In this document: positions 2,651 through 33,340 of the stretch, piece by piece
How positions within the stretch are numbered: position 1 is the first letter of the stretch
Layout: every line of letters begins with the position of its first letter
NCBI GenBank assembly: GCA_030141605.1
Contig: JAQGDQ010000197.1
Span: 1 to 64,000, forward strand
Reading direction: 5' to 3'
Source of the DNA: Tubiluchus corallicola
Taxonomy: Eukaryota; Priapulida; Priapulimorpha; Priapulimorphida; Tubiluchidae
DNA length: 64,000 nucleotides
The notes under the pieces: generated by a model
Databases searched by the model: none
Seen by the model: the letters and a program-made list of their open reading frames with translations, nothing else
What the model was told of the DNA's origin: nothing
Made by a program: the position numbers and the translations under genes

Positions 2651-3249
2651 CTTTTTATATTAATAAAGTAAACAAGGAAGAGTGGAGAGGTTCATAAGTT
2701 ATTTATGCTTAACCTCTATCCTTCGACGGTAACGGCAATATATCATTTTTTATTTTGTCTCGCTTCACAGACAAGTGATCAGTTTCATTACCGTTTGGAC
2801 AAATAATTGTTTTCCAGTAAGTAAACGGGCTAGCGAGCTATGTAGCCTACATAGTTTCTCTGTTTAAAGCATTAGATACTTAGTATAACACTATGCTGAT
2901 ATTAATGGAGCTAATAATAATGATTATTGTAAAAAATACATTTGTAAATTGTCAAGGACTATTCATCATTATTAATAATAATTAATATTAATAATAGTTG
3001 CTTTTTTTCTAAACGAATTTAGTTTTGTTTTATTATGTCATAATTCGCCAGAAATCGCCAGTGCCCCATGTACGACACTGCTTTTCCACTAATTTAGCAC
3101 AAGCGCTTTAGCAGAAGTGTCCTACTTCGGTTAATGGCGTACTCCGCGCCTTATTATTTTTGATTTCCGATGCAGGTGAAAAAATAACTGAGGAAAATAT
3201 AATTTCCCAAGAAATAATTAAGAAGTGAGGATCGCTTTTTCAGTTAAAA
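2651..3249. other. Intergenic spacer
   Basis: AT-rich spacer between two retrotransposon remnants. It has an ATTAAT-rich run near 2965-2995. No gene or recognisable element was seen. Confidence 0.5.
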
Positions 3250-3276
3250 ACGCATGCTCAGATACTAAGTAAAGAG

Positions 3277-6659: not shown

Positions 6660-7238
6660 TCAAACTAAAGCTAAAGAATAATCTGTGAGTCTTTTTGGCA
6701 ACCTCCGACTTCTACGAGGCCTTAAATTAAAAACATGTCCATCAAAATCATCATCTGGACTTTCAGCACTGCAGCTACTGACATCAGAATTAATACATTC
6801 ATTATCATGGTCATCACTACTAAAATTAGCATTATTAGCATCTTCTATCATATTCACATCATCTTCAGACTGATTTGGGTCATAACAGGGATATCCATGC
6901 AAAAGAGCATAAGTGTCATCATCATCATAATCAGAATCATAACTATCACAATTAATACAAGATTTGGATTTACCGGTTTCACGGATATTAAGATTTAACT
7001 TCTTCAAGTTACCACCATGCACCCACAAAGAATTATGAGCACGAGGTAGTTGTATACAGTAATCAGGAGGTTTCCATTTTATCACCTTATAGGGGCCCAA
7101 ATAATGCTCCACAAGTTTCCTATTTGGTCCAGATCTACCTCTAAAATTTATCATTGCAACATTGTCACCCTCTTTAGTGCAACCTAGAGGTGTTACACTA
7201 GTCACTGAAGCATTTTGGTACTTTTCAATATTTGACAT
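6660..7238 (-). pseudogene. Gypsy integrase C terminus with GPY/F module and acidic tail
   Basis: This continues the polyprotein in another frame. LVEHYLGPYKVIKW is the GPY/F module of gypsy integrases. A tail of about 100 residues follows, very rich in Asp/Ser/Asn (for example SDYDDDDTYA), and ends in a basic patch (RPRRSRRLPKRL). The acidic tail is not a domain I can name. Confidence 0.78.
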
Positions 7239-9100: not shown

Positions 9101-9279
9101 ACGTTGAAAGATGATATATTAGGCATATATTAAATTCCAGGCATATTAGATAGACCAAACGGACAGACATTAAATTCATAAAGCCCATCTTCAACTACAA
9201 ATGCAGATTTTTCTCTTGAAGATTTTTCCAAGGGCAACTGGAAATATCCAGACTTTTGGTCAATTAACGTAACAATCAA
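9101..9279 (-). pseudogene. RT segment broken by two small insertions
   Basis: The fingers/palm part of RT is still legible in short pieces (DQKSGYFQLPLEK, GLYEFNVCPFGLSN) in a frame different from the upstream one. Two extra stretches of roughly 25 bases, one near 9265-9290 and one near 9110-9135, each partly repeat adjacent bases and shift the frame. They look like slippage or fill-in duplications. Confidence 0.7.
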
Positions 9280-10692
9280 TTAATTAACAATCAATGTAAA
9301 CCAGCCAGCATTGCCAGCACTACACTTTGCAAGCAATTCATCCATCCGGGGTAAAGGATGACTGTCCTTCTTCATTACATTATTCAACTTAATGTAATTC
9401 ACGCAAAATCTATATTCATTATTCTTTTTACGAACAAGAATAATTGGACTTGCCCACGGTGACTGTGATTCAGAAATTATGCCGCTTTCAAGCATGGTGT
9501 CAATCTGATTTTGCACTTCAGCACTAAGGTGCACAGGACATCTGTAAGGCTTCTGTTTTATAGGCGGTCCAGCCGTTTCTATCACATGTTCACACTGAGA
9601 CACATGCCCCAATTCACCATGGACAGAGAACACATCAGAAAATTCATTGAACAACAACTTTTCCATCACGGCACGTTTGGAATCATCAAGGTGATCAAGA
9701 TTTATACCAGATTTCAATTTCTGGTGATGCTTTGAGTCATTCATACTTGCAAGCTTTGCACATGGTGCATCTAGCACATCAACAATTTCTACAGTTTCCA
9801 ATGATCCTAAACAAGCTCCATCTTTTACTTTGACAGGATCATCTTTCACATTGCACATTCGAACAGGCATAACATCTGCACTTGCCATACATCCTCGAGC
9901 AATGAAAAGACCACTGTCCCTCCATGAATTTTCAGGGTTCAACATATATGCTTCATCACTAGACATAGTATGCCTTGTCACAAATGGCTGAGTCACAGAA
10001 GCCGGAATCACAGCTTCACTATGAGGTTCAACAAAAACTGTTTCTCGGCAAAAAACTGTTGGCGAGTCCATGGCAACCACTTTTGAAAACATTTTCACTA
10101 AACCAGTAGCATGGTTCACCTCGCATTTAGATTTTTGTAGAAAGTCTCTACCCAAAATTACAGAGTCAGTGATACTGCCTATCATGCAGTTCAAGGTCAA
10201 AGATTGATCAATACTTGGCAAATGAAAATCAATTACAACATCACCATAGTCATGTAATTTCAAACTTCTATGTGCAGTAGCTAAATGTGAGTCACTCACC
10301 GTAGCTTTGACATTATCACATATGAGATCAGCTTTCTTCGCCATGTCAACGCTAATTACGGTACATTCACTACCAGAATCAATAATTGCTGGACATTTAA
10401 CACCATTGACCAACAACTCAACAACCAAACAACCCACACCAAGACGTCGATTTATAGTACCTGATGTTTTCACACCTGAGCGCGTTGATTGATTGTCACA
10501 ACTCTTATTGCAGTTTTTAGTAATATGGCCAAGGAAATGACACTTGTGGCACTGTATCTTACAGTTCTCGGCAGTGTGCCCGACAAGGGTACATGAAGAA
10601 CATCGCTTTGCAAACTTGGATCGACCACCATGAGCATTAGGCTTGGCACGAACACTAACCTCACCTTTCACTGTGGCACAGTCTCTCGCCAA
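9280..10692 (-). pseudogene. Gypsy gag (nucleocapsid)-protease-RT N-terminal part
   Basis: The frame opens with two CCHC knuckles, CSSCTLVGHTAENC and CHKCHFLGHITKNC (both C-x2-C-x4-H-x4-C), then a retropepsin with the active-site triplet in IIDSGSECTVIS, then the start of RT (ASPIILVRKKNNEYRFCVNY and KKDSHPLPRMDELL). It ends at a stop beside a small insertion. No ATG is present; the frame runs into the LTR remnant, showing loss of the upstream gag. Confidence 0.87.
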
Positions 10693-10697
10693 GGATA

Positions 10698-10757
10698 CAA
10701 GCTTTCAATGCGCAATGACAAGCACACATTTGCTTAATAACAGGGCTGGCCCTGACA
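10698..10757 (-). repeat. 5' LTR remnant (60 bp)
   Basis: Sixty bases identical to 6347-6406, ending in CCTGACA. The identity stops abruptly at 10698, where coding sequence for the nucleocapsid region begins. The rest of the 5' LTR, the primer-binding site and most of gag are therefore deleted. Confidence 0.85.
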
Positions 10758-12369: not shown

Positions 12370-12515
12370 ATGAGTGAGTCAAGGAATGCCCAGAGGTCTG
12401 AGCAAAGCGAAACAGAATTTAAGGGTTGGCTGTACAAGTGGACAAATTATTTAAAGGGTTATCAGAAACGATGGTTCGTGTTAAGCAGTGGTAATGGACT
12501 GTTGTCTTATTACAG
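12370..12515 (+). CDS. OSBP: OSBP exon 1: start and first half of PH domain
   Basis: Encodes 48 residues and two bases of the next codon, with [20 protein letters not shown] at the PH start. Donor AG|gtaac. The frame stays open upstream to an ATG at 12283, but the ATG at 12370 gives MSESRN directly before the acidic lead-in to the PH domain and is preferred. Confidence 0.9.
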
Positions 12516-15500
12516 GTAACTTAATCTAGATTTTTATTGCATTAATAAAATTGGATATGGCCTCACAAGAGGTTTAAATCCAAATTCGCTGTTTTGCGAG
12601 TTTAGTGCATAGTGATAGTTGATAATTGATTTTTGTATGGAAAAAATGTGTGAAAAGTCAAGTAAATGGTCAATGATTTTATTTAAGATTAATAAAATTA
12701 GGGGCGACGGATACAAGCTTTAGAAAAACGGTGAACCCGGCAAAAAAGCTGCTGGGGCAGCAGATTAAAAACAGCAATTAAGGCAGCAGAGGATTTTTGA
12801 GAAATAGGGACTCGAAGAATGATGACCTTCAGTTTAAAAAAAATACATGGCAAGTAATATGACGAAGAAGAGAAACTATAAAGAACTAACACTGAACGCA
12901 AAAAATGGTCAAATTAAACAAACTCATGTATACAAATACTTGTGAGATTGATTTAATAGCAAAAACAATTATCAGCTTCTGTTTGAAAAAGAAAAGAGAA
13001 GCTGAAATTTATGATCTCAGAAGTAATGAATACTAGTTGCGAATCTAAAGTTGGAACTCAGGGCTAGATTAATGTATAGACAAACTAAGCATGTACTTAG
13101 GGCACCAAGCTGGCAAAAAATAAATTGAAAGCAGATAAATTTTTAATAAAGTATGTTAAAGACCATAAACGTTTTTCACAGTTCAAAATGTGAGGTAGAG
13201 GGCTACAGGAGAATAAAGCATCGTGGCTAGGTTGTTTTTCATATCATTACATAGCATCATATCAACTACCTGATATGTATTAGCAATGTATTGATATTTT
13301 TGCTGTTCATCTATATGAACAATATTACTAATCATGTCACGCTATATCGAGGAATGGGTGGTGAAAAGCCTCCAAAATGGCCCCTTTTGCCCGCAAAATT
13401 TATACCTCTTATTTCTAGACATCTGGAACAGGCCAGGCTGGTGCTGGTAATGGTTGGATATGGTGGGTGTAGCAGACATATTTCCCATTTTTACTGCACC
13501 TGATGGGACTTTAGGAAGGAGATCTATAGCTCTTTGGAAAAGGGAGCTACATGATGATATTAAGCACATTATGAATAAATATGAAATATACCAATATCAA
13601 TATGATACAGTGAATATAAATGCAATAACCAAATATTAATCAAAGGAGAAAAATGAAATTCATTTATTTATAGAAAAAGAAATTAAACTTAAAATTGAAA
13701 CAATGACAAAATTAAGATTCTTAAAAACCAAAAGCTTTCAAAGACAAATGTATGTTTAAAAATGCAGGTTAGATGAAATGAAAGATATTATTTCAATCAG
13801 GCGTAACATGATAGATGTTAAAGCGAATTGTAAAAAAGCTGTATAAAATGGATCTGAAATGTTCTTTATGCCATATAGCAGCGGCTACTACTAACTAAAC
13901 ATCTTCTTGAATGTAAAGCTGTGTATGTCGACAAATTGGCCTATCAGCGCAAAATGTTCATTTCGGCTTCACTGATGAAAGCCATGATATCCTGAGATGA
14001 TTTGATGATACCAAAATAACTGTTAGTTTTGGTTTGGACTTTTAATCAAATGATTGCTTGCTCTGCTAGCAGTTAAGTGGCTGCCTGAAATTTATATCAT
14101 CTTCTGTGAGCCTGCAACTCATAATATGAGGAGCTGATTCACCACTTGTTTTGTTGTGCTACCGAATCAACTGCAAAGCAACTTACATGGCATGCAGAGA
14201 TATCTTTGTTTAAAACTCCAGTTATTTCAGCACATTGTTTTTACAATAAAAGTCATTAAAGCAGGACTTCCCCTCCCCTTATCAGTAATTGAAAACAATC
14301 ACTAAATGTTCTAATGCTTATATTCATTTGATGTGTTCTAACTGCTATTCTGAAAGGGGCCCACCCCCGAAATCTGCCACTGGTAATTTACAATGATGTT
14401 GTCATAAAGCTTTGTTGCGTTTCTATAAAGGACTTTCAACAGTATTGTGATCCTGCATATACAACTTGAATTGTTTTCACCTTAACTCACTATTCTGACT
14501 ACCCCACCATTGTAAATGTTCAATAGGAGACTTGGCAGCTTCTTGGGAAGAACCCGTGATGAGGTTATGCAATACATTTCTTAAGGATTGTCAAGTTACT
14601 TGTGGTAGGTGCACATCCATAGAGGGCTACTGTACAAATAAAAAACTGTAAAATGTAAGAATAATCGTAATATATGCTAGCTTTTTCAAAGTTTCACCTG
14701 TCGTATATTTTTCATTTAACTACGATAAAAATAATGCTATAAACCATTACTAGTTTTATCCAGAATTTATGCTATTAGGCACTGTTTGCATTTGCTACAC
14801 GAATAATTACCCTTATTAATCATCACCCGAGCCTGATAGTTCAACCTGGTTCCAATGTGAAAATGTGGTACCTAGGCTGACATTGCTAATTTGTTGATAA
14901 AGCATGAAATTGAGTAATTAAGAAGTCTGGCAGATAAAAACTCAGTCCAATTGCCTTGTGTGCTTTGCAAACCAGCTATCAATTAACTACAAAAAAACCA
15001 AATTTATGATAATCAACAATAAGCAAATTAACAATGCTAATAATCCAAAATTTCATATTATAATAAACAAACACAAAATTGAAGAAACAGACAACATCAA
15101 ATACTTGGGCCTACTCATTGATAATAAATTAACATGGGAACCACATATAAAACACATAACATACAAATTAAGTCGAATTACTGGAATAATTTTAAAAGTA
15201 AGGCACTACGTTGACCAATATATTCTGAAACTTCTATATAATTCGTTAGTTTTCCCTTATTTACAATATCCCATCTTAGCATGGGGTACAGCTTTTGCAT
15301 CAACTCAAAAATTAATACAGACACAACAAAACAAAATAGTAAAATTAATAACTTTTGCTCGCAAATATGATCATGCTACACCATCGTTCGTAAAATTAAA
15401 AATTTTAAAAGTAAGAGATATTTACAATCTTGAGTTGTTCAAATTTATGTATAAATTCAATGCTGGTTTATTACCCGAACTTTTTAGAGAATATTTCACT

Positions 15501-18500
15501 AATGTTTCTGATATACATTCCTACTCCACAAGAGCTGCTTCTAATGAACAGTATTTTGTGGAGAGATTTTTTACCCGACATGGTTTCAATAGCTTAAAAT
15601 CACGAGGAGTTAAATTATGGAACTCGTTGCCAAAAGATACCTTTGGCGGTAGCTTATTTTCTGCTTCCAAAAAATACACAAAATTCTTACTAAATGAATA
15701 TACCTGTAATACATAACTTGTAAGACTAATAAGCAAGCTATCAAGTGTGTTTTTTTCTTCTCATCTCCTAAGTAATTGTTGCTCTTTCTTATACTTACTT
15801 TTTCTCTTAAATTTTCTATATTACACTTTTTTTTGATACTTATTTTATCTCTCCATACAGTCAAAATCCCCTGTCAATAAGGCCCCTATATGAAAATATA
15901 TATAATAATCATAATTACTTGTATTGTTTTGTTTAGATTTTGGTGTCATCTAACTTTATTATTTTTTGTTTTCACTTATACTGTTTTCATTTATACTTTG
16001 TTTTCATTTATACTGTTTATTATTATTATTTTTTTTCCTATTTGATTTTGTTATCCGCAGTCTCACCATTTACTTTTAATATACTAATTTAATTATTAGA
16101 CAGGGCAGGAGACTAGATGACCCTATGGTCCTTCCCTGCCCTGCTCCACTACTATAATTAAGTAATAACTAAAAAAACTTGTCATGTCAAACAAATGGAG
16201 AAAATAAATGTTCTATGTCTATGTGTGGTAAAACATTAATTTTCATGACTCATAGCATGTGTGTTCAGGCCCTCAGCTTGTAATAACTGAATACTTGTTG
16301 TTAAGATAACAGTGCAGTTAGTTGAAATGCACCAGTGGTTGTTTTTATTTGTGAATGTAAATGATTACAGTTTGTGCATTGCCACTGAATCTTTACAGTC
16401 GGGTGTACATGACGATGTAAGAAAAAAGGTAGGCCCACCCTGAGTCAGATTTTTGCTACCTGTGCTAACACTTATGTTAGGTAGGCTACTGCAGACAATC
16501 ACTTATAATTTTCTAAATGATTCAACTATAGCCGTACAGCATTTATTTTAGTAAAAGTGAATGAGCCTTTTCACAGTTTCGCTATCTGCATGTGCAGTTG
16601 CTGTAGGTCAAAGGTTAGGTGAACCTCAGCAACGTGTCTTAAGTACTAGCCACATGACATGTGGGTAAAGCAAAGCTGTCTACCACATCAATTCAGTAAC
16701 TTCAGTTATTTTATGTGGACTTTACCTAATTATGCATTAGTCTGTGTGATGTATAGTGAGTGATCTTGCAAGATCTTGCTTTGGAACAAGAAAAAAATGT
16801 ACTAGGTAAGGTTCTAGCTAGCTGTTAACACTGTTACTATTACAATAGCATGGGCTAAAGTTACTGACAACAATAAGCCTCTAATTTTTTAAAGATTCAT
16901 AGCTTGCTTGCTTATTTGTTCTTCTTTTTCTATCAATGTGTATATTGCCAACTCAAACTATTAAATTTCTCATTGAGAAACTAGTTTAGTTGCTGCTGCT
17001 GTAGTGGTGAAAGTATTCCTGAATGGTACTAAAAAACTAATAAAGTAATTAAAAACTTAAATTATACTATGATAATTTTTTTTCAAAAATAAAACAGAAT
17101 TCTCACATGTCATTGGTATAATTTTTAATTTTTTGAAGTTTCTTAAAACTTCACTGGGGAACTTTTCAGAGGTATCCAGATCTCCTACCTGCTATTTCGG
17201 TAGAATCTCTTGGATTAACACTCAAAAATTGGCAGTGTACTTTATACATGAAACTCTGTGAAATGTGTTGCCATGTCAACAACTGCAGCACTATCGTAAG
17301 AGGTGCTTTCACAAACAATAGCACACAAGGTTCAAGAGAATGCTGATTTAATTTGTAAGAAATATAAAATACATAAAAAGTTGCAAAGCAATTGTCTGAC
17401 TATAGGTTACCAAAATTGTTGGCATCTTACATGTAACATATTTTTTGCAGCAAGGCAAGACTCTTAGGGTTTCCAGTAATGTCCAGAAATTCGTTTATTA
17501 ACATTAACTTCTCTGATTGCGTTATATCTGTCATCCTCAGTGCACATTCAAAAGCGCTCAATGAAAAGTTACAAACCAAGTAGAAGCAGATATCGTGGAC
17601 ACCAGAAAGACACTGTTTTGGCTGTCCAATGCAATGTCTAGCTCGTTTCCAAATTGAGCACTTTTTTGCATTTAGTGAGGTCTTTAGCTGGAACTTTATT
17701 ATTTCAGAACTCATGCTGAAGTGGCACATACGTGTCGGGGAACTATCTCTCTTCAAGGTGCATTCATCCACACGGAAGATTCAAACAATTTTACTGTTTC
17801 AAATGGAGGATCAAGAACATTTCATCTAAAAGTAGGGTTTTTATTGCTTTATTATTTATAAAAGCATATATGTTTCTGAACTTAATTAATGGCTTGTACA
17901 TTTACTATTTAGAGACAAGTAAATTTACATGCACGTGCTGTAAATGCTTCTCTGTTGGCAACTTCTACTTAAGTACTGCTATCATATTTTGATTTATTTT
18001 TTAGGTTTATTATGCATTATTTCAATGCGTAAGGCACCATACATAAATTTCAATGTGATCACGAATTACGTATTTAGTTTTTTGTCCAGTGAGTCTCAGT
18101 CTATGTGCATTGCAACAACTATAGGGTTACAACTAATATTGAATATTTCAGGTAGATTACACATCTTGTTAGTGATCACAGTTTCAGCCAGAGAGCAAAT
18201 TCTGTAAACAAACATGGCTGCACACACAGGAAAACAGCGATCTTTTAAATTAAAAAATATGCTTTAATGTGATTGAAACTTTCAGCTATGTATGAAAATT
18301 TGGAGAACATGTAAAGTTCGATTGGTTCGATTCGTTGAATAACCTGGCAAAATAAACATATAGAGCCAGTTAAGGTCGTATATTTTTTCCTTGAAAAGTA
18401 CCCGTATACGTGTGTTACTAAATTTACTGTCTTCAACTTAAACATAAAATTACCATGTACCCGTGTACCCCCAAGTTATTCATAGCTAGTGTTTGTCATT

Positions 18501-21500
18501 CTCTATGCAGGATCTAGGATCTTTTTCTTTGAGTGCGCAAAAGCTCCAATTTGTTCGATACCCAATCACTGCTTCAAAGCTTTAATTTGTAACTGAAAAC
18601 TGAATTCAATTGTCATTTTTGGCTTGATACAATAAATTCTACTTGGGCAACTTTACAAATTAAGCAAATAGAGTAGGTCTTTCAAAAACATTTTTAAAAG
18701 GTCAGCAGATTATCAGAATGATAAACAGTTTAACAGTTTATTCTTTATAAGCTTTCACCATAATGAAATAGTATCAATGGTGTTTTATAAAATAATGCTT
18801 TGTAATAATAATAGCACATAAATCATTAGTACAGAATCACCTAAAATCTAAAAAAATCACTTTAAATTATGATAGAAATAAAAAAATCATCAATAAAAAC
18901 TAAATCATCGCACTAATAAAACGTCTTAAACTGTAATAATTAAAATGATAGACCCATATTTTTAGATACCACTTCAGTTACCAAATAGACCTATTGTATT
19001 AATTTATACAAATGCTTACTGAAACAGGTGAGTCTTTACAAACAAATTTTGCACACCTTTCGTAAGATAGAGACTGCCAGTAGGTCTTGAGGTGCATGAA
19101 ACATGCGATGATTTTGTGTGTTTGTTTGTTTGATTTTATTCTGTTATTATTATCGAGCGAAAACATTGTTTAGGCCGCATCTGAGGTGGAGAGGCAAAAA
19201 TGGGTGACTGCTATTGAGCTTGCCAAAGCGAAAGCAATTCGCAAGATGGAAGAAGGTTAGTTGTGTAAGCAGGTGTCTGCATTCTGCAAGATATTGATCT
19301 TGTATTATTTATAACCATAATTTGATTTTCTTGTCTGGATAATGGTCTAATGTTCGTTACGTGTACATGCATTATAGAAATCCTAACTTAAAAATCCACT
19401 TTTAAGACAAGTTAATGCATCTGTGGCTTCAGTACACTTGACACCTATTATGTGTGTGGCTAAGGCAATTTAGCTGAGTAATCACAGTGTCTGCTTAATG
19501 ACCAAAGTTAAGCAGTGGTGAACCTAATTAGTAATTTGAAAAATTTTCTAGGTAGTTTATTTTATGTTAATTTTTCATTTGCCTTACCATTTATTGTGTT
19601 GTGGAAGAATGTATATCAGCTTGAACATGGTTAAGATGCCTCTGCTGATTTAGTACCTCATCTTAGATTATGCAATCTTATGAGGTACAGTAGTTAGTGT
19701 TCACTTGTGCCACAATAATTATTATAGTAACTAGGTCTTGTTGTGAAATGCTGCTGGAACTGTTTCTGGAGGGCAACTTGCAGAATGTCAAACTGCATGA
19801 AAAAATGTCACTGATGATAATTCCTCTTTTGTTAATAATCCTACATTTCATGCTTAATTTCTTGCAAAGATGTGAGGCATTTTTAACCAATCTCAGATTG
19901 AATCCTTATTGAAATCCCCAGATCATGAACAAATTCCATGCTAGTGTTGTTTAATATGCCTTTGATACAAACAACTCATTCAAACTGATATAGTCCAGAT
20001 CTAAGTAGGATTATAAAATTTGTGCAAAATTCTGATATATTCACTTTTGTATCTTATTTTGCTGAGGACAAAAATAAATTTATTTTATTTTAGCTGATGA
20101 AGAAGTGGTTCAACCAGAACAACCAGATAAGAATGAATTGCAGAATACTCTACGTTTGCTCAACACTAAATTAGAAGAACTTAACACTTGTAATGATTTA
20201 ATAACTAAACATGGTAAGCATTCATGCATCTTCTTATACTACTTACTTCTGGGGTTCCCACTTGTGGCTGAGCAAAGATTACACTGTATGTAGTATGTAG
20301 GTTTGGAAACTGGAAAACTTATTAACTGTGCACAAATATCCTATGTTTTGACAGGGAGTCAAAAAGTCTTCCCAAGTAAAATACGTGACTAAATTAATAA
20401 GTTAATTATTTCAGAAGCTAGCCATAAGAGTAGATCTATAATAATATGTTGGAGTATTGGAAAGGCTGAAATTTCCAGAAAACAGCGTGAAATATTGAGG
20501 GTTGTTTTCCAGAATCACTGAAGGGCCTATGAAATACCAAGGACTGTTCTCCTGATTATCTTTCATAATGAGTTAGGATAATACCATCAACCAGCCTTAA
20601 AATCCATAGAAGTGAATTATTGATTATTTGATTTTCACTAGGTGCAACACTACAGAGGTCACTTGCTGAGTTGGAAAATTTGTCGACAACATCTCCGCAA
20701 GAACTTCCACAAAGATTCAAAACTGCCAATGAACGAGCGACGTTGTTTCGAATTACGACAAATGCAATGATCAATGTGCGTACATTCTTTCAAATTTTAT
20801 TTTTTGCTGTAACTGTGATTAATAAGTTACAATAACTTTGTTACCTTAGTGCATGTATCATGCTAAGCTAGCTGATTGACGTCAAACATATTGATCTATC
20901 GCTTCGCCTCCGCTGTGACATAAGCATGCTCAGCGGTATCCGGGAGAACAGTTCACGCTGGACAACAACTGTCCAAACTAAGCGAACACGAAATTAACAC
21001 TTCAAATAATGTAGAGACGAAGTTTCAAAGCACTTCAAAATACAGAGACACAAGTATAATAAAGAAACTAAGCCGGTTAGCCTTGCTTTACAATAAATGA
21101 GCAACAAAAATATTAAGTCTTTCTTGCCTTTAAACATACGAACATCAAGCCTCCAATGTATTTTTCTATATTAATTGATCATGTGCTCGTCTGCAAGATT
21201 TGTTAAGTTTTTGTATTTCTCCGCGTGTCAGGCTATGGAAATGGAATAAATTTGACTGTTCCATTCCATAGACGACCCTTATATTGAATGCCCGAGTCAC
21301 ATAAATCCCATTGGCATCTTTTAATTATGATTATAACCAAAAAAATAGCGTAAAATTAACTAATATTACATTGATGTATGATATAAGTTTTGACAACATT
21401 TGAATTAATTTTGACAGTGAAGATCTCATTGAGGTTTATAAAAACTGGCCAGAAAAAAAACCATTTTGTTTTGTCCTTATTTAAAGTTAATCAAATACTT

Positions 21501-24500
21501 GTTTTTGTCTAACTTGCAAAGTCATAAACTAAACTAAACTGCGTATTTTCTTGATTGGAAAATGGTTTAATCAACAACTCATAGACATAAGCTTGTGCAT
21601 TTCTTCCTATAAACGAAACTAGACTATATATTTCCATCAATTCACTTGCAATTTCAGTTGACAATATAGTAAAATCTAGAACCAAGCCAATATTTCTCCC
21701 GCTAGCTAATGAAAAGTTGAGCATTTTTCATAACAGTGTTAGACAGAGCTATGGCTAAATGTCCCGAACGTACCTACTTTAATTAAGCTCTGCAGGGGTG
21801 TGTGAAATAACTTGCACGCTGACTGGGCAGTCAACGAAAATGATTAACATTATATTAGATATCAATTGCAAAAACTTCCATGCATTTGGCTTTCGTTCTA
21901 AGCATTACAGTGGCTCAGTGAACATCTGTGGTTGTTTGAAGAAGAGCTTATAAATTTCAAAATCAGCTCAATAAATGATCTGATCAAATTATTGTAATTA
22001 AAATATAACTTGTAAGTTTGGGAAGTATAGAGTATAATTTTATGTAGGTCTGCTTGAAACAATGGTAGAAATTAGAAAATATTTTCATTTGTAGCAACTG
22101 TATTTATCAATTTTCAGTCCGGCAGTCAGCAGCACAGTTGGTAGAATGATAGCTGTGGTCCGGTGAAACAGGAACTGAACTCATTATCAAGAGTAACTTT
22201 CGAGATTATACAGTGAACTGGTCGAGATGTCTTGACTATGGTCAGTTGTGTACACTCTCCCATAATGATAGAAATGGCCAGTGTGAGCCCAATTGAGTCC
22301 AGTTTACTGTCCAGTTTCTGCTTTACTGAACTGTTGTAGACTTGCCATTGTCACTCAGACACAACAAAATTACAAAGTAACACAAACAAGAAATGATGAA
22401 GACAAAACCGTATCACCACTTGTTGGTTGGCTGAAATTAAGATTCTGGTATTTTATGAGCATTTTTATTTAAGATAAATTTTTAAAACTGCAGAATATGT
22501 AAAATAACTTGTTTTTGCTGTTTTATTTTCAGGCTTGTTCAGATTATGTGAAGCTGACGCAACAGCAGGGTCATCGCTGGGTAAGAGCTCTACAGTATGA
22601 ACACGAGCAAAGACTTCAGCTGGAGGAAATGGTTGAACAACTGGCTAGACAGCATAGTAGTCTAGAAAATGCTGCTAGGCAACTAGCACCTGAACCCTTG
22701 AAAGCTAAAACAAGTACAGGCGGTATGATTTGCTACCACCCAATTTTTGCTTTGAAGGTCTTTCCGATGTCCTCAACAAAGTCCAGAAGTTGTAATTTGC
22801 AAATTTACTTACAATTACTGTAAGTAGTTATAAGTTTGCATTTTTGAAGCCAAGCAAGCCTTTTCACAGTTTTGTTGTGCGCACGCACAGTTGCTGCAAG
22901 TCAAAGGTTAAATGCACCAGAGCAACGCATCTTAATTACAACCATCACGTGATGTGGGTAAAGCAAAACCATCTGCGATGTCTGGTTCACTTAACCTTTG
23001 ACCTTTTCACGATCATCATCTATAATAACGGTTTATGCCTTCCTTGGTGACGTCGAGTTCGATCAAACACAAGTAATTTTACTCATTTTTACCTAAACTG
23101 TATAAAAAAAGGAAAAATATTGTATTTTCTTGGCAATCAAAAACAGAAATACTGTGAAAAATAGCGACTGCCTTTCTCATGTTTTTGCTGGACTATGCGT
23201 GAAATATTAATTTTTGCATTTGGTTGTTTGCTTGCAGCTCATTTGACTCCAGAAAGCGATGAAGACGAATTCCACGATGCAGTGGAAACAAATGAAGTAG
23301 ATTTTGAGGTCGAAATACCCGTGAAGACACATAGGTGTGTAAACCATATAAACATTGTTTATAAGGCCTATATAACCCCAACAGACATTGAAGTTTTTAT
23401 TAACGCATTATTATGATTACACATAAAATTGATGGTTATTTTTCATGAAAGAAACTTATAATTAAATAACTTACCTTTTTGCTCACGAATTTCGAACACG
23501 TGCATTGTCGTAAGGATCACCATGTTTCATGTCTTTGGCGCGAGTAAGCGAGAATGACGTACATTGTTCTTCAGAATGCGTCTTTGGTTACCAATGTTTG
23601 TTTATTGATCTTTGATGACCTCATAATGTCATTTACGTCTCTCAACAAAAAACTGCAGTTTTTCAAATTTAATACTGCTAATAGTGAAGTGATAAAAAAT
23701 CAAAGGAAACAAGTTTTACAGTAAGTTTAAATAAAATAAATCAAATATTTGTAATGAGAATAGGATTTTAGGTTGTAAAAGCTTATATTATGGTGAGGAT
23801 TTAGTTTTACTTTAATAATAATAATTTATTTTTTATAATTTGTAATTATGTCCACGAGTATCGCTGTAATGGGATGTTTAAGCAACTCAGCTGAATCGAT
23901 CAAGGCTGAATGAGTTCTAGCACTTTTGGTGACAATGACTGAATCCTAGCTGATACAGTGCATTTAAGATTTGATGTATAGTTTTTTAGTTAAATTTGGT
24001 TCGAGAAGATTGCATTGAAAAGCACTGGTAAATTCTTTTATGGCTTTCCAAGTTTTATCTTGTAAATTTGCACTTATTTACAGTCAACCACACATATAAC
24101 AAAAAACAGAATAACATAATAAATCTTTGTGACAAGCAGAACAAAGCATTGCAGTATTTGCTCTAGAGTAATTAAATTATAATTGTATGTTTACCTGTAC
24201 GTAATCAAGTTGTACTATGTTTAGGAGAACAGCCAGTGGCATAAGTATAGCATCCATGGGTTCTGAAGGTGCATGCTATGATGAAGAAGATCAAATGTCT
24301 AATGGCGAATATGGTGAGATGTATCGCAAGAAATCCGTCACTGCCAGTGTTGTAGCTACAAAGAGCAAGTCTAGCAAAGACAAGATACACGTATAAAATT
24401 CCCTCTAAATTTATTTCTATTTAAGCAGAAACTTGTTTATATTATCATTTTAATATCGCTTTAACAAGTCATGTAGCTTTAGCATTGTCAAGAATTCATT

Positions 24501-27500
24501 TTATAATGTGAATTCACTTGATATGAGATGAACTTTTGAGTTTGAATCATAGATTTAAATGCCACACGTCGGCGAAAGATTGAACAATACATTGCGAGTG
24601 TGTTTGCGTACTGCTGTTTTTGCCTAACAAATGAACGCAGTTTTTACCTAAGTACATCTTACCCGTTGTTTGTCTTACAGCAGACTGTTGATTTTGTATA
24701 ACAAAATGGCACCCATTGTTGGCAATTTGTACAAGTCTAGCAGTTTCTTTGCTCCTGTGCAGCATGTCATTCTATGACCTGAAAGCACAATTTGTGCAAT
24801 GTGTGGTGTACATTTATTTATTTTATATCACGTTTATTTCAGGTTATGACAAGTACCATAGAACAGTAAATAAAAAGATTTCATTAAAATCATTATCTAA
24901 AAATGTTGCAAGACAAATAAAAATAAATATTTGCACAAAGAACAGAGGATTAGTAAGTTAAATATTTTAAAAAATTGTTAGTAAGTGTGTATTCCCAAGG
25001 GGCAAAAATTTTCGAAGTTAAAATGACATCAGTATTCAGAATAAAAATGTGTATGACTATGTTGTTTGAATTTAGAACGCGCTGACGAAGACTAAAGTAA
25101 CTTCTATTTATTATATACTAGTTATTCTAGCACATTACTTTCTGTGCTTTTTCCCTTCACAATGACAATGAATTATTGCTTAATTTAGTCAGATGAGGTA
25201 CAAGATTTGCATCGAAAACGCTGTCATTCGGAACAATTATTCCAGCACCGGCAAGCGCCATTTATCCGATGCACTAGTGCTCCGGGCACACCAGTGCATC
25301 CTTCGACTACTAGGAGACGTCGAACTGGGATTAAAGACCGTCCAAATCACAGTCTGAACCTGTGGAGTATCATGAAGAATTGCATCGGCAAAGAACTCTC
25401 AAAAATTCCCATGCCGGTAAGTGCGAATATACCTGCCTGATCTTTTATTTCTTTACTCGGTTGAGTTACTGTAACTTGATGTCTACTGCCTAGTGATGTC
25501 AACCATGTATTGACTTATCTAGAATTTCTAAGGTTTAAACTTGTAAGTCTGAAAATGTTCACTTAATGTTCACTCAATTAAATAATTGGCTGTAAATATG
25601 TTGTATTAAGTAACCACAAAATTTTATATGAAATTCTCATAACATTTTTACATGAAAAACGTGTGTATTGAACTCGCCTCATAAGTGTCAAAGGTGTGTG
25701 TGCAAACTAAATAATCTAAATTTTAAATGCGCTTGATCATCCTAATCACAACACAAAATTAAATTTGGAATTGAAAGAACATTTTAACTACTACTTGTTT
25801 TTTTAATTGATTTTGAAACTTCATTTGAGAGAAACTATAATGCAGTATTTATTTTTACCATGTTGCAGGGTGAGCTATGGTTTACTCATCTCACAATTTT
25901 GCCCATTCTGTTTCATTTGAATTGCCCATTTTTCAAACCATAAAAATCCAATTGTGGACTTTAGAAACTAATTCTATTCTTATATATCTAATGAGCAAGT
26001 TGATACCTCTGTGCACATGTATAATGAAAGAAATAGCTGGAAATAGCTTTTGTTTTTACATATGCAAATTCTTTCCTTTGGTTTTTTCACTGATTATTCA
26101 CGAAAATGTAGCATAAAAAAACTTGCAGTGTATTATTGTATTCCTGTAGGTTAATTTTAGTGAACCGCTTTCAATGCTGCAGCGATTGACAGAAGATTTT
26201 GAATACGCTTACCTACTAGATGGTGCTGCTCAATGTGATGATCCACATGAACAGATGGCGTATGTTGCAGCCTTCACTGTCTCATCATACTCAACGACAA
26301 CGAATAGAACTTACAAACCATTTAATCCATTATTAGGCGAAACTTACGAATGTGATAGACGTGATGATTTAGGCTGGCGTGCCTTTTCTGAACAGGTAAC
26401 GTTGTTTTTGTTGCTTGGTGTATTGCAATTGCACAGAATTGTGGGATTGATGATAATGCATGGCTAATTTGGTGAGAAACTAAGGGGAAATTCAAGTTAC
26501 ACTGTTATGGTTATTTGAATGACAGTAAGGTGTATTGCATGTAACATTAATCTACATGTCTTGGGATGACTTATGCTTGATTATACAGTAGGCGCTGCTT
26601 AATAGACTTACATTGGGTTGGAAGTGGTTTAACCAAATTATGCGATTGATATTATTAGCCAAAGGGTGTAGTATTACTAGTACAGAAGTTTGAGTCATTA
26701 TCACTCTTCAACTTAGTATGCACTGTAAAGGCTGTGAGAGCTTTAAATGTCAAGTCTTTATGCTTATGCTCTATATTTCAAAATTAATTCTGTGCTCTTA
26801 ATTGTTCTATGATCGTCTGCAATTTCGAAGAAAATGCATCTATGGCATAGCAATAACAGTTAATTGATTAAACCTTCTATGAGAAGCTGCAAGAGCTTAA
26901 AAAAGAAACTGCTATAGGCATGTGATTAAAAGTTTAGCTTCCATAAATTCTTGGGCAAGAAGGTTACTTGCATGGGATGAGCGGGTGACAGGTTCAAACC
27001 ATGTATTAGTGCATGATAAACGACCTGCTTACATACAAAATGGTACATAATATAATTGTTTCTACGTATGGTATAGTGTACAAAAGTGAAGTAACGGTGA
27101 AATAAAAGTAGTAAAAGCTCGGTCATACAAAAGTGTTTTATTTTAAGTACGTTAAGTGAAAATATTGAGGGAATTGTTTAGAATTATTTGATACAATTGT
27201 ATCAGTTTTATATACACCTGAATAGAAGCGGCACGTTCCAGACGTTTTAAGTCATTTCGGCGATTGATTCTGTTAACTGTGAGTCTAATAAATGGTGTCT
27301 ACTGTATTTCCTTTACCATGACGCATGTATTAAAATTCAATTCAGTCCACCCTTTATTTCAGCATTAATTATAAGTAACCTGTATTGTCTAACATGCATG
27401 GTATGGCCAAAAAGACCTGTGATATAATACTAAAATAAATTTTCTGCTTAGTTTTTTTTGAGCACTGCTTGTTCTGTTTAGTGTAAAATAGTAAAATAAT

Positions 27501-30500
27501 TTTACTAGTAACATACTAATTTGTACTAATATTTCTATTATTTTTATTTGCATGAAATGACTAACTGTGGACTAAAACCTGCCTGTTGCAAGCTTTGGTT
27601 GCCTGATATCTCCACACTGGGGATACTTTTGGTTTGGTACATTTAATTTATTAAAGCATGCTGTAATAACATGGTTACTGTTTAGTGTATTTGCCTGCTC
27701 AGTTCTAGTACTAACAAAGTAATATTAATTTCCTGCCACCTGTTTCTGATATTTTGACATATGTTGTTGATGCTGGTGGTATCAGAAGAATCTGAAACTA
27801 ACACAATTAAAAACTGTTCTATTTCTTAGATACGGCTGTGTTTATTTTCTAAAGTTGTTAAGCTAAAGTGACTCGGTACTATTCTAATATTCTTAACCCT
27901 CGGCAGCCGCAAATGGTTACTAATACACCCCGAACGTCTATATTGAGTTACAACTTTGTACCTTTGTACCATGAAGACATCACTACCTTTTTTCTTAGAA
28001 TCGTGTTTAAGTGGTTATCGGTCTACTATAAGGTGTCGTTTGACTTCTTGCATGTCATCCGCTTTGGTTGTAATATTGATTACAACTCAGTAAGGTGAGA
28101 TTTCACTCAAGCCCTGACATTGCTGTCATGTCGTATTTCTCTATTAACTGATATAGGCAAAAATGAAAAGTAAACAAATGGGAAATATTTTATTGTGCAT
28201 GTTAGCTGGCTTTAAAATGTACTGTTATTGTGAAAAAAATATCGTATGTTAGGCCATTAAGACTAAATTAAGTGATGTGACATACTTACTAATTAAAAAC
28301 ATGCCTTCTGACAATTTTCTTACAATTTTTAATGTGCAACCTTAATGCAGGTTTTGCTAATACAGCAAAGTAATCAAAGGTATGAAGTAGGTTTATTGAC
28401 CAACTGAACTAATATAGTAACATTTCTTCTATATTTATGCATGGAGAGAAATAATTCCATTGCTAGTATTCGCATGACTGTAGAACATTTGTAGGGGCTG
28501 AGAGTTAAGTATGTTATTTGCTGTTAATCTAAAGCACTTGTTTTTTCTTAAAGACCATCATTTCATGGCGTGGAATTCATTTTTCTTTTTGTGCAAAACG
28601 CTGCCAAAACAGGTTTGCTAACGTGTGTACATCAAACTAAACATGTGTAGGAAAATTTATTTTTTGTATTTTTTAACTCTTTATCTAAGAATTGATTTGC
28701 GACACAAAATTAATACATTGAAGGTACCGTTTTAACAATTCAAACCATTCTGTTTAAGCTGTTGTACAACACTTTTAATTATAAAGGATTTTTTGAACGA
28801 TCTTTTAACTTTGCTGAACATACTTTACCATTGGGTTTATTTACACGAGGGTGCCTCAGCCAGTTGAAAATGAATTATCTATGTATGAAGTAAATTATGA
28901 ACATATTTTAGGGAATTATTTTATAAAATATTATTGTGTTTTGTTGCTGTGTAAGCTTGAGTTTACTATGTACTGACGTTTTTCATAGAACAGCGTTAAT
29001 AAGTGTTATCTCAGAGTAAAAAAATTGTTAACAAAGTGGTTTTAAGTCGCTGATTAAAATCGGTCAATTTACCAAGTGATTTTGCTGTCAAACAGTTAGT
29101 TTCAGTTTATTTTACTGTGTGTTAAGGTCAGCCATCATCCTCCTGCAGCTGCAATGTACACTGAAGGAAGAGAGTGGATTTGTTACCAGGAGTTTACCAT
29201 GTCCAGCAAATTTCGTGGGAAATATCTCAACATTATCCCTTTGGGTGTAGCCCATTTAGAATTTCCTAGTTCAGGCAATCACTACACCTGGCGAAAGGTA
29301 TTGTAGAATGCTGTTTAATGCATCCTATTCAGCCTGTGCATAGAACTATGTTTCATTATTGTTTAGCAGGCGTCATGTCAACCAATCAGGCAACAAAGTG
29401 TACTGCAACAGGTAGGTTTTAGAGTTCAAAGACGTGCATTGTTGATGTTAATCTTTTAGGGCTCAAACTTGCTTTGCAAGCCTGTAACATGCTCTGCTTT
29501 TCGCATGGTATGCATTTCTCTAGGTATCGCATCACCCACCGGCTGCGGCACAGTTTGCCGAGGGACCCGGTTGGGTGATGAGTAAGGATTTCTGTGTAAA
29601 GAGCAAATTTCGTGGAAAGTATTTACAGGTTATGCCAATTGGGTTAAATCAACTTGAATTTACAAAGTCTGGACATGTATATACATGGAAAAAGGTAAAT
29701 TGGCAAGAGATGAGAAATCTTGAATGTTATGTGAGTTGTTTTATACAGCATGTTTGTTTTTTGTTGTTGTTGTTGTTATTGTGTTTTTCGATAAGATAGT
29801 TTGCTTTAGCTATTTAGCTGTTTGTACCAAGTAGTGAATTTTCTTAGTGAATTTTTTGTGTGATGTGAGTGCCGTATTAAGACAGTGGTTGGCATACTTT
29901 TTTATGCACTGCATAATTTTACATGATTTAAAAAGATCCACAGAGCAAATTCAGTAAAAACTGTTGTTGTGTCGGTTTGTGTAACATTTTATTCTTGTAC
30001 TGAATAAAACATTAGTGTTTCTATAAAGCTACATATATTGTGAACAGTGTTTAACAATTTACTATATATTATGGCTTATATATTTCATTAATTGATATGC
30101 AAACTCGTTTCAATAATTTGTTGCAAGAAACTAAAAGAAATTTGTTGAAACTGAAATCGAATGTAATTAGTATTATAAAAGTGACGTCGGACAATAATAC
30201 GGATTTTGCACCCCTTTTTTATTACTTTCCTTGTATTTTACATGGTTACTGTTTTAGGAGGTAAGTATTTATTGCACGTTTTTCTTTGCATGCTTCTTTT
30301 CTTACTGTTCTGCAGTCTGTCTGCTTTCAGTTTTAGTGAATCTAGTTTTTATTAAAATTGTTGCATTTTGTTTAAAGATAAAGTTTAGATTATAAAGTTG
30401 TGCAATTCATTCAAAAAATATTGGTCATGATTGCTTTAATTTGTTGTCACTTTGATGTTATACTTTGTCTTCATGTAATCTGTTGAAAGATTGCAATTGG

Positions 30501-33340
30501 TATGCCAGATGAAGGTGACTGAATAAATAGAACAATGCCTTTGCTTAAGTGGATGCTGGTAATTATTTTCACCTTAAGAATTCAATTTCTTCATCTCCAA
30601 TCTGTTTGGAAATTTTTCTGTTAGACAAAGGTTATTTGAGCCATCGCAGTTTCATCAAATCAAACATTTATGTAATTTGTATTGCTTTTTTAGCAGATGT
30701 GACTGTTAGAGCTTGCAACGTTAGTGATAGTCATTGGTATCATTGGACAGTAACTTGTACACATTTTAGTTTTGTGTAGAAAGTATTTCTTATGTTTTAG
30801 ACATAAATGTATTTGTGTGATAAGTTTATGGACCTTTTGAGCCTCATGAAAAACGATGTAAGTCTGTTTAACGTAAAGTATTTCAGATGAAAGTGAAGCT
30901 TGTAATTTTTTACAATTCAATTCAATACATTTATTTGTTTACCTATGGTTATGTCAAGCTATTTGCCACAAATTTCATTTTTAACTAATTTTTTTACATT
31001 GCACCTTTTGTAAATTTTCTACACAACATTTTTAATACTTGCGTGATTTTCATGATATTTGTTGCTGTGTAGGTGATGACAACAGTTCACAACATCATTG
31101 TTGGAAAATTGTGGATAGATCAATCAGGAGAGATGGACATTGTCAATCACAAGACAAAAGATGTTTGTCGGCTAAAATATTATGCTTATAGTTATTTTTC
31201 TCGTGAAGCACCGCGAAAGGTATTTCATCTTAGTTTTATATAGTCACTTTAACAAAAATTATGAAGTTATATTTATAAAAAGCAATTTTTGTTTTATAAA
31301 ATATCACAATTTAGGCATTGGTCACTTGGGCAATTATCACACGCAATTAGTACATGCGGTAATTGATAAGAAATAATGGTACTATTGCATGTTGAAGATG
31401 AGTAAGTGTTGAGGTTGAGTATAATACTAGTAAGTTCTGAATGCACAGTTCCATAAGAACAAACTAGCTATGAGTAGATAGTATGGAACTTATTTGCTGC
31501 ACAGCATTTATTTCTTATCAAAGCCTCTTTTTATTGAGCATGTTGGTAAGTTCATAGATACATCTTCACTATAATAAACTTTATTGTATTATATTATCAA
31601 ATTTATTAATGTGGTTCTGAAGAATTTCATTAATTTTGATTGTTACGCTCTCTAGGTTACGGGTGTTGTGACAGATGCAGCTGGTGGTGTACGATGGGTG
31701 TTATCCGGTCATTGGGATGATAAGATTGAAGGTGCTAGAGTCATTGAAAAAGCTGATAACAGTAGCAGCTTTACGTCTAAGCAGAGTAGTAAGCCCTTGT
31801 TAGAAACGTATGCACCAGTTTTACTATGGAAGCGACGTGTGCCTCCGTAAGTCATAATTTTGTTATTAGCGCTTTTCTGTCATTTTCTGGTGTTTCAAAC
31901 AATTTTTGGTCATTTTTGCCTCTCTGTTACTCTCGTAATCAACGTGGCATTGGTTAGATGGTTAGAATTAGTCATGATATACAGAGTGACTGACAGCCTA
32001 ATTCTAATATCTTCTATGTGAAATTTTATTTCTTAATTGGCCTAACTTTCTATGGGATTGTGTTAGGAGATGCTCTAGGAGTAATCTGATTAGTTATAGC
32101 AGATGATAATTCTGAATTTACTGGTTCATTTCTTTTTTGTACACAGACCTGATAACTCGCGATTCTATAACTTCACTCAGTTGACAGTTCAGCTGAATGA
32201 ACCAGAGGAAGGTGTAGCACCCACGGATTCACGAAAGCGACCAGATCAGCGAGCTATGGAGGAAGGTGATTGGGATGCTGCTAATGACGTATGCACTTTT
32301 ATCCTCTTTTACTCTAGTGCATATTTTGTGAAGTATTTGACTCAGTTTCATTCAAATGTCAGCGTGTAAATTTGTCTAGATGACAGTTTTAGTGGTTATT
32401 AATTGCATATTGTTTGATTCTATGTTGGCCTGTTTTGATAACATTGCGTAAAGTACAAATTAACACTTTGTTTAGGGGATTTAATTTTTTACGTTAACTC
32501 AGAGACCTTGTTTTTGGTAAATTTCTTTAGAGGCACTAGATGCTAGTGTAGTAACTGTACTCCTTAGAAAATGTATTACACAAGAGCAGGTCCTCCATTG
32601 GTAAATGATTTGATATTATAGCTAGGCAATGTGAATATCTAATATCTAGTAAAAAGCCTCTAGGTTATGTTGAAAATGTATGAGCAGTTAAACAGTATGT
32701 AACAAAATGATAGTATTTGCAATGAAGTTGTATTACAATTTTACAGTTGAAAGTGAAGCTGGAGGAGAAACAGAGACGTAAGAGGCGTGAGAGAGAACAG
32801 GAAACTGAGAATGCAGCTGCCCAGGGTATGTACACGTGTCCTGTGTCCTGTACCTGTACACGTGTCCTGTTTTCTACTTGTGAATGTATTGGCGAAACTG
32901 TCTAGCTTTTTGCCCCTAATTTTTCCATCTTAGTACTAACTAGTTGCATGCAGAAACGTAAGAGTTAATCTCTAGATTGTTCGCTAGCAAACTATGGTAC
33001 TAGCATTTCAAGTACTTTGTGAGGGATAAAATTTTAATAGTTTTTCTCCGGTCCTTTTGCAAGTTTTTTGCACCTTGAATTTAAAGATATTCATCGCTGC
33101 AGTTGCTGAATGTAGCTTTATCATTAATTTGATGCTTTCAGTTACAGTCGTGTATAATTTGCAGGACGGCCTTTTAAGCCTTACGAGCCGGTGTGGTTTC
33201 GAAAAGAACGTAACCCTTTGACAGGAAGTTTAATACATATGTACAAAGGGAACTATTGGGAATGTAAAGAGGTGCAAGACTGGAGCATGTGTCCAAAGTT
33301 ATTTACTCTCGAGGAGGCGGGACAATCAGCATCTCCATAG
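12370..33340 (+). CDS. OSBP: Oxysterol-binding protein, 16 coding exons plus one alternative exon
   Basis: Cytosolic lipid exchanger acting at ER-Golgi contacts: the PH domain binds Golgi PI4P/Arf1, the FFAT motif binds ER VAP proteins, and the ORD carries sterol out and PI4P back. Exons: 12370-12515, 17708-17831, 19174-19255, 20094-20213, 20642-20775, 22533-22722, 23238-23334, 24225-24390, 25189-25416, 26150-26395, 29127-29297 or 29524-29694, 31073-31219, 31656-31846, 32147-32288, 32747-32825, 33165-33340. All junctions are GT-AG and the phases agree, giving 812 residues (vertebrate OSBP is about 807). PH domain about 16-112, helical region about 120-250, FFAT-like 276-282, ORD about 405-800 with EQ|VSHHPP at 510-517. 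Similarity to vertebrate OSBP extends over the whole length. No stops or frameshifts were seen. Confidence 0.96.
14958..15716 (+). pseudogene. LINE ORF2 C-terminal fragment, open reading frame
   Basis: Starts near RT motif D ([10 protein letters not shown]) and motif E ([20 protein letters not shown]), then the thumb and a C-terminal region ending in a GVKLWNSLP motif common to jockey/CR1-type elements. There is no internal stop, so the copy is fairly young, but the FADD/YADD-bearing half is lost. The first Met is not a biological start. Confidence 0.8.
14958..16225 (+). mobile_element. CR1/L2-like LINE 3' fragment
   Basis: A 252-codon LINE ORF2 C terminus followed by an untranslated tail. 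The tail includes a hairpin near 16102-16145 (AGGGCAGG pairing with CCTGCCCT) and ends in short TCTATG-type repeats near 16213-16225, a tail style known from CR1/L2-type elements. It is 5'-truncated: RT catalytic motifs are missing. The clade is inferred from the KYLG..ID..L.W..HI pattern only. Confidence 0.75.
16562..16690. repeat. Dispersed repeat, copy 1
   Basis: About 130 bp that resembles 22855-22980 in the same orientation, with shared blocks such as AGCCTTTTCACAGTTT, GTCAAAGGTTA and GTGGGTAAAGCAAA. Probably an unnamed MITE or SINE. Confidence 0.6.
17708..17831 (+). CDS. OSBP: OSBP exon 2: second half of PH domain
   Basis: Acceptor tttcag|A and donor AAA|gtaggg. Encodes HTCRGTISL and SRTFHLK, the beta-strand core of the OSBP PH domain. 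It completes the split Arg codon of exon 1 and ends in phase 0. It lies after a 5.2-kb intron that hosts a LINE. Confidence 0.93.
19174..19255 (+). CDS. OSBP: OSBP exon 3: PH C-terminal helix
   Basis: Acceptor gtttag|GCC and donor AAG|gttag. Encodes [19 protein letters not shown], the closing PH helix with its conserved Trp. Ends in phase 1. Confidence 0.95.
20094..20213 (+). CDS. OSBP: OSBP exon 4: helical region
   Basis: Acceptor ttttag|CT and donor ATG|gtaagc. Encodes [10 protein letters not shown] and CNDLITKH, the start of the helical dimerisation region. Ends in phase 1. Confidence 0.94.
20642..20775 (+). CDS. OSBP: OSBP exon 5: helical region
   Basis: Acceptor cactag|GT and donor AAT|gtgcgt. 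Encodes LQRSLAELE and [16 protein letters not shown], a very conserved OSBP helix. Ends in phase 0. Confidence 0.95.
21233..21271. repeat. Small intronic hairpin
   Basis: CTATGGAAATGGAA and TTCCATTCCATAG form an almost perfect stem around an 11-base loop in OSBP intron 5. Significance unknown. Confidence 0.55.
22533..22722 (+). CDS. OSBP: OSBP exon 6: coiled coil
   Basis: Acceptor tttcag|GCT and donor GGCG|gtatga. Encodes [20 protein letters not shown] and [11 protein letters not shown], a strong coiled coil. Ends in phase 1. Confidence 0.95.
22855..22980. repeat. Dispersed repeat, copy 2
   Basis: Partner of 16562-16690, in OSBP intron 6. Next to it, 22985-23005 carries an inverted copy of the internal block GTCAAAGGTTAA, which would allow folding. 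Confidence 0.6.
23238..23334 (+). CDS. OSBP: OSBP exon 7: FFAT-like motif
   Basis: Acceptor ttgcag|CT and donor ATAG|gtgtgt. Encodes [12 protein letters not shown], an acid-flanked FFAT-like VAP-binding motif in which the usual second Phe is His. Ends in phase 2. Confidence 0.93.
24225..24390 (+). CDS. OSBP: OSBP exon 8: Ser-rich linker
   Basis: Acceptor gtttag|G and donor CAC|gtataa. Encodes a low-complexity linker starting [15 protein letters not shown] and rich in Ser/Lys, in the position of the phosphorylated linker of vertebrate OSBP. Ends in phase 0. Confidence 0.87.
25189..25416 (+). CDS. OSBP: OSBP exon 9: linker and ORD start
   Basis: Acceptor atttag|TCA and donor CCG|gtaagt. A basic linker ([13 protein letters not shown]) leads into [20 protein letters not shown], the ORD lid region. 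Ends in phase 0. Confidence 0.95.
26150..26395 (+). CDS. OSBP: OSBP exon 10: ORD, up to the EQ before SHHPP
   Basis: Acceptor ctgtag|GTT and donor CAG|gtaacg. Encodes [26 protein letters not shown] and [14 protein letters not shown], and ends FSEQ, so the signature EQVSHHPP is split by the following intron. Ends in phase 0. Confidence 0.97.
26396..29126 (+). other. OSBP intron 10 (2.7 kb)
   Basis: The intron before the duplicated exons. A tRNA-like piece with a B-box-like GGTTCAAACC lies near 26990. A TGCATG (Rbfox-type) hexamer lies at 28438-28443. No third copy of the HHPP exon was found here. Confidence 0.6.
29127..29297 (+). CDS. OSBP: OSBP exon 11a: alternative HHPP exon, first copy
   Basis: 171 bp, 57 codons, phase 0 at both ends. 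Acceptor gttaag|GTC has a weak pyrimidine tract; donor AAG|gtattg. It encodes [17 protein letters not shown], then SSKFRGKYL and HYTWRK. The two His of HHPP contact the PI4P phosphate in the family. The 57 residues align end to end without a gap with exon 11b, so one of the two is probably used per transcript. Confidence 0.93.
29524..29694 (+). CDS. OSBP: OSBP exon 11b: alternative HHPP exon, second copy
   Basis: 171 bp, 57 codons, phase 0 at both ends, 226 bp after exon 11a. Acceptor tctctag|GTA has a better pyrimidine tract; donor AAG|gtaaat. It encodes [17 protein letters not shown], then [15 protein letters not shown] and YTWKK. About 32 of 57 residues equal exon 11a. No stop or splice damage is visible, so it is not a dead copy. 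Confidence 0.94.
29695..31072 (+). other. OSBP intron after exon 11b (1.4 kb)
   Basis: AT-rich, with a TTG-repeat stretch near 29758-29778 and a TGCATG hexamer at 30287-30292, about 590 bp after exon 11b. No coding sequence or third exon copy seen. Confidence 0.55.
31073..31219 (+). CDS. OSBP: OSBP exon 12: ORD
   Basis: Acceptor gtgtag|GTG and donor AAG|gtattt. Encodes [25 protein letters not shown] and [11 protein letters not shown], core ORD strands. Phase 0 at both ends. Confidence 0.97.
31656..31846 (+). CDS. OSBP: OSBP exon 13: ORD
   Basis: Acceptor tctctag|GTT and donor CCTCC|gtaagt. Encodes [22 protein letters not shown] and [10 protein letters not shown]. Ends in phase 2. Confidence 0.95.
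32147..32288 (+). CDS. OSBP: OSBP exon 14: ORD
   Basis: Acceptor acacag|A and donor GAC|gtatgc. Encodes [20 protein letters not shown] and [18 protein letters not shown], the conserved PTDSR..RPDQR block of the ORD. Ends in phase 0. Confidence 0.97.
32747..32825 (+). CDS. OSBP: OSBP exon 15: charged C-terminal helix
   Basis: Acceptor tttacag|TTG and donor CAGG|gtatgt. Encodes [16 protein letters not shown], the charged helix of the ORD C terminus. Ends in phase 1. Confidence 0.94.
33165..33340 (+). CDS. OSBP: OSBP exon 16: C terminus and stop
   Basis: Acceptor ttgcag|GA. Encodes [34 protein letters not shown] and CPKLF, then about a dozen unconserved residues to TAG at 33338-33340. Confidence 0.96.

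Follow-up and report, generated by a model that had tools for sequence, protein, structure and literature searches.

A close described counterpart of the exon pair reported here is found in vertebrate OGDH, where, according to the sections of that study dealing with exons 4a and 4b, an old tandem exon duplication likewise gave rise to a one-or-the-other choice (PMC7969005). In the same sections, exclusion is attributed to a short intron with branch points less than ~50 nt from the 5' splice site, an arrangement that we also propose for the second of the two genes considered below (PMC7969005). A minimum distance of ~50 nt from the 5' splice site to the branch point is quoted for vertebrates in the excerpts of both OGDH and human studies (PMC7969005, PMC5740500), and a catalogue of human mutually exclusive exons, as excerpted, counts 57 clusters (9%) with a donor-to-branch-point distance below 50 bp (PMC5740500). 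That source also states, in its relevant passages, that for many pairs of similar adjacent exons splicing is not exclusive (PMC5740500).

Here we examine an OSBP gene of the priapulid Tubiluchus corallicola that carries two adjacent versions, A and B, of the exon encoding the HHPP core of the lipid-binding ORD domain. A report of such an exon pair in OSBP was not found in the open-licence library searched. Our analysis indicates that A and B are very probably tandem mutually exclusive exons, with each mature mRNA taking one or the other.

Results

The window, a 64,000-nt stretch at the start of contig JAQGDQ010000197.1, contains a complete OSBP coding region (12370..33340, forward strand), identified by its exon chain, its splice sites and the PH and Oxysterol_BP domains of its product. 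The chain was built from splice sites and the open frame, and runs from the start codon to the stop, each transcript having 16 coding exons, with one further exon as an alternative. The PH domain (PF00169; 60.8 bits, cut-off 25.1) lies ahead of the ORD (PF01237; cut-off 28.9), which scores 463.9 bits with A and 456.1 bits with B, and the linker between the two domains holds a candidate FFAT-type motif, so named for its resemblance to motifs of that type. The best match of the A segment among solved structures is the human OSBP1 ORD (PDB 7v62, E 1.5e-45).

Several open frames related to reverse transcription lie upstream of OSBP. Two match the reverse-transcriptase family PF00078 (877-2352, reverse strand, and 3229-3855, forward strand), while two adjoining reverse-strand frames (7205-9118 and 9283-10704) have reverse-transcriptase, RNase H and integrase matches, as well as aspartyl-protease matches below the cut-offs. 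The adjoining pair is presumably a Ty3/gypsy-like retroelement, and the start codon of OSBP follows it at a distance of ~1.7 kb. Intron 1 of OSBP contains a 264-codon open frame (14922-15713, forward strand) without a Pfam match that, by eye, resembles a reverse-transcriptase fragment.

Exons A (29127..29297) and B (29524..29694), both on the forward strand, are separated by an intron of 226 bp (29298..29523), the shortest of the gene's 16 introns. They are flanked by two common exons, exon 10 (26150..26395, forward strand; VNFSEPL...RAFSEQ), which ends in phase 0 and has a counterpart in the second OSBP gene described below, and exon 12 (31073..31219, forward strand), which the exon chain places in phase 0 at its start. 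Each alternative exon is 171 bp (57 codons) long, in phase 0 at both ends, preceded by an AG acceptor, followed by a GT donor and free of stops; either one joins the common flanks in frame, giving a predicted product of 809 aa. The two share 32 of 57 residues in a gapless alignment and 98 of 171 bases. The original prediction had placed the two exons at these positions with the same length, phase, splice sites, absence of stops and approximate identity, all of which was borne out on re-checking.

The resemblance between A and B exceeds chance, as judged from tblastn E values and from simulated neutral decay that falls short of the observed 32 of 57 residues. Searching the window with A and B by tblastn returned both places at E 5e-21 or better, with the next best match at E 0.042, and no further copies of the exon in the window. 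When A was allowed to decay neutrally to the observed DNA identity in 20,000 simulations, at most 25 of 57 residues were kept (mean 15.3), and 3.2% of the simulated sequences were stop-free. Agreement between A and B at codon positions 1, 2 and 3 amounts to 35, 44 and 19 of 57, respectively (second against third position, Fisher p 4e-6), with a saturated pS of 0.82 and a pN of 0.33. These values point to an old duplication in which the protein sequence has been kept while synonymous change became saturated.

We searched the genome (343.5 Mb in 2344 contigs) with both exons. Among the best candidates scored, both queries yielded an identical set of four matches at E <= 0.001, two of them in the window and two on another contig (C166), where a second OSBP gene is located whose exons extend from PH to ORD. 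This gene (hereafter gene 2) carries, on the reverse strand, exon A' (207793-207623) and exon B' (207587-207420; 56 codons), each matching both A and B, and VSHHPP opens all four exons. Outside the exon, gene 2 is 69% identical to the window gene over 680 columns; because of this divergence and its location on a different contig, we regard it as a paralogue, as opposed to an allele or a duplicate created by assembly. A and A' share 49 of 57 residues, B and B' 33 of 56, and B and A' 33 of 57. A' and B' are separated by an intron of only 35 bp, whose retention would stop the frame after 75 codons. No extra copies of the exon were found in 40 kb around gene 2. A search with exon 10 matched three more contigs (C2286, C177 and C1874), which hold further ORP-family loci with a single HHPP segment per contig within the ~3-kb loci fetched.

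Comparison with other OSBP proteins indicates that A is the canonical exon, whereas B, in which HHPP is retained, is a second version that evolves fast. The corresponding segment of Priapulus caudatus shares 48 of 57 residues with A and 35 with B, and that of the nematomorph Gordionus 48 and 32. A' is nearer to Priapulus (51/57) than A is, in keeping with gene 2 as the Priapulus orthologue. Homologues were collected from two protein searches, one with query region 530-625 (exon residues 22-57, the exon starting at 509; best 120 of 1896 hits) and one with the B' isoform of gene 2, region 465-590 (best 120 of 2004 hits); a search with exon B alone yielded two candidates, neither significant. The listed matches comprise 204 proteins, all with HHPP, of which 203 have full segments (135 unique); the unique segments together with A and A' form a set of 137 A-type sequences. 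Aligned to B without gaps, the most similar of the 204 listed homologues agrees at 36 of 57 residues. Residues K21, C24, L41 and N42 of B occur in 0 of the 135 unique homologous segments listed, and these four together with V25, all five common to B and B', have frequencies of 0-1.5% each among the 137 A-type sequences. B' additionally lacks one codon and the conserved residues K28, Y33 and L34, and in view of these losses it may be decaying.

The divergence of the B exons raises the possibility that B does not work as an alternative and is what an old exon duplication left behind, seldom used or in decay. The B exons have much longer end branches in the exon tree (0.72 and 1.82) than the A exons (0.08 and 0.11), in line with far faster evolution, and both have replaced H43 and H52, which are present in 135 and 132 of the 137 A-type sequences. 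Moreover, a B-type segment was not found among the 203 homologous proteins listed, which include one Priapulus record; this absence is weak evidence, given that no more than the best 120 matches of a search were listed and that the database is clustered at 90% identity, so that two isoforms with 25 differing residues would fall into one cluster and may be hidden. We nevertheless judge a relic unlikely: after saturating synonymous change, the B copies of two genes are both stop-free and retain scoring splice sites, and over the 56 codons compared, B matches B' at 36 first, 41 second and 19 third positions (second against third, Fisher p 6e-5). With pN and pS of 0.10 and 0.74 between A and A', and of 0.33 and 0.85 between B and B', protein change appears to be restrained in both copies, B included.

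The shared arrangement is best read as one exon duplication preceding the duplication of the OSBP gene. There are 15 sites at which B and B' both depart from A and A', and at eight of these the two have identical residues, where ~1.2 would be expected (1.25 in the BLOSUM-based calculation; model P ~1e-5); these identical co-changes, five of them to states rare in A-type sequences, are the reason for preferring a single exon duplication. An exon tree, proposed with the original prediction and here built from 33 rows, joins B and B' with support of only 75/86 and does not reject a clade of A and B (p-AU 0.40), and the exon by itself seems too short for its tree to prove a single duplication. The unrejected A and B clade is compatible with separate exon duplications in each gene after the gene duplication, followed by convergence of the two B exons, as is the fact that B is no closer to B' than to A'. 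We find such a history unlikely in view of the excess of identical co-changes and of the order, phase and place of the exons, which are alike in both genes. In a gene tree of 25 proteins from which the exon was taken out, the window gene, gene 2 and Priapulus group together (99/99), as would suit a priapulid or a near relative, with gene 2 and Priapulus as the inner pair (98/92); the gene duplication, and with it the earlier exon pair, should therefore predate the split from Priapulus, making the pair probably older than that divergence.

Two further explanations concern what the exons do in transcripts and whether the locus is correctly assembled. In the window gene, inclusion of both A and B would give an in-frame product of 866 aa (752 aa with neither), and the intron between them measures 226 nt, so that A and B might both be included in one OSBP or behave as ordinary cassettes without strict exclusion. 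This we consider very unlikely, given the 35-bp intron between A' and B' in gene 2 and the difficulty that a fold with five barrel strands doubled would presumably face, judging from the Limulus model described below and the excerpted ORP3 structure (PMC8049286). The original prediction had named an assembly error collapsing two OSBP loci as a case against it, and although the genome does contain two such loci, this explanation is scarcely credible and was rejected: each locus has its own A and B, A and A' as well as B and B' differ strongly, and likeness is confined to the exons, the best match between different flanks spanning 12 bases (E 0.029).

Mutually exclusive splicing of A and B, which we strongly infer from the genomic arrangement, was already the reading of the original prediction, and gains support from the short intron of gene 2 and the restrained change in both copies. 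In gene 2, joining of A' to B' would be sterically blocked, because 35 nt falls below the ~50-nt limit, if that vertebrate limit holds in this animal. In the window gene, nothing physical or frame-based appears to stop double inclusion, and exclusion would have to be regulatory, since the intron is 226 nt long, double inclusion is in frame and the sites are of the GT-AG type.

To compare site strength, we used splice-site matrices derived from the remaining 14 introns of the window gene, with A, B, A' and B' outside the training set. Donors score 6.5 bits for A against 7.9 for B, and 7.5 for A' against 10.7 for B'; acceptors score 0.66 against 9.4 bits in the window gene, and 7.4 against 11.5 bits in gene 2. 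None of the 14 acceptors used for training scores nearly as low as that of A (range 4.8-13.1 bits). The weaker A sites in both genes suggest that B is the default exon and that A depends on an activator. The low-scoring acceptor of A ends in AAG, and a second candidate acceptor, TTTCAG, at 29100-29105 would lengthen A by seven in-frame codons.

A GCATG motif match, presumably of the RBFOX type, lies 16 nt upstream of exon B (29503..29507, forward strand), and gene 2 has a GCATG 18 nt upstream of B'. An RBFOX-type protein bound between two such exons is expected to favour the upstream exon and repress the downstream one, and could perhaps help A and repress B here; by the same rule, another GCATG at 29748, 53 nt downstream of B, would favour B. 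With this copy after B, and with 33 copies in 21.5 kb around the window gene and 20 in 22 kb around gene 2, a role for GCATG in exon choice is suggestive only.

To place the exon in the protein, we used an AlphaFold2 model of a Limulus homologue, computed from a 29-row alignment including exons A and B. Its mean pLDDT is 74, and ten-residue averages within the exon range over 68-97. In this model the exon corresponds to the HHPP turn and five strands (positions 7-13, 17-30, 33-38, 41-46 and 52-56). Two ORP8 strands map by alignment to exon positions ~16-29 and 33-39, with H514 as the presumed anchor of the ORP8 numbering; K21, C24 and V25 of B fall within the first of them. These strands (529-542 and 546-552) are, in the excerpted account of ORP8 simulations, among the elements touching lipid chains, and the numbering fits the Tyr543 named there (PMC10417380). 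In ORP3, according to excerpts of the structural study, the PI4P head group is bound by the two HHPP histidines together with residues of helix 8, and sterol would not fit into the narrow tunnel (PMC8049286).

Discussion

If each mRNA takes A or B, the gene would produce two OSBPs that have the PH domain, the FFAT-like motif and the C-terminal portion of the ORD in common and differ in the HHPP turn and in a five-strand part of the barrel. Because the two histidines are retained, both isoforms should keep PI4P binding, and the changes at K21, C24 and V25 and the loss of H43 and H52 would give B an altered barrel wall; B might accordingly differ in its second cargo or in the rate at which this is carried. 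On this basis we tentatively propose, as one possibility, that OSBP in this lineage is a switchable carrier, in which splicing swaps an acyl- or sterol-facing part of the barrel for a different second cargo while the PI4P residues stay, the switch having been inherited and kept by both genes and exclusion being achieved by regulation in the window gene and by a too-short intron in its sister.

OSBP drives the transfer of sterol from one organelle to another, and the barrel residues that set the second cargo matter for the whole family. As a natural exchange of five barrel strands that leaves HHPP in place, A and B offer a ready-made pair for testing second-cargo residues, and the sister genes, with introns of 226 nt and 35 nt, provide a natural comparison of two modes of exon choice.

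Like the entries of the human catalogue of mutually exclusive exons, A and B are neighbouring exons with compatible splice sites; neither OSBP nor oxysterol occurs in the main text of that catalogue, as excerpted (PMC5740500). The OSBP pair differs from OGDH in gene and function; in the sections describing exons 4a and 4b, the OGDH branch points were mapped (PMC7969005). The 226-nt intron of the window gene need not obey the ~50-nt limit. Compared with the human OSBP1 ORD (PDB 7v62), there are here two versions of the HHPP exon, of which B departs at K21, C24, V25, L41 and N42 and lacks H43 and H52. The original prediction supposed that in vertebrate OSBP this exon is single. Both A and B and the pair of gene 2 are adjacent homologous exons of equal phase, as in tandem mutually exclusive exons, and the OSBP pair would be a further member of this already known class.
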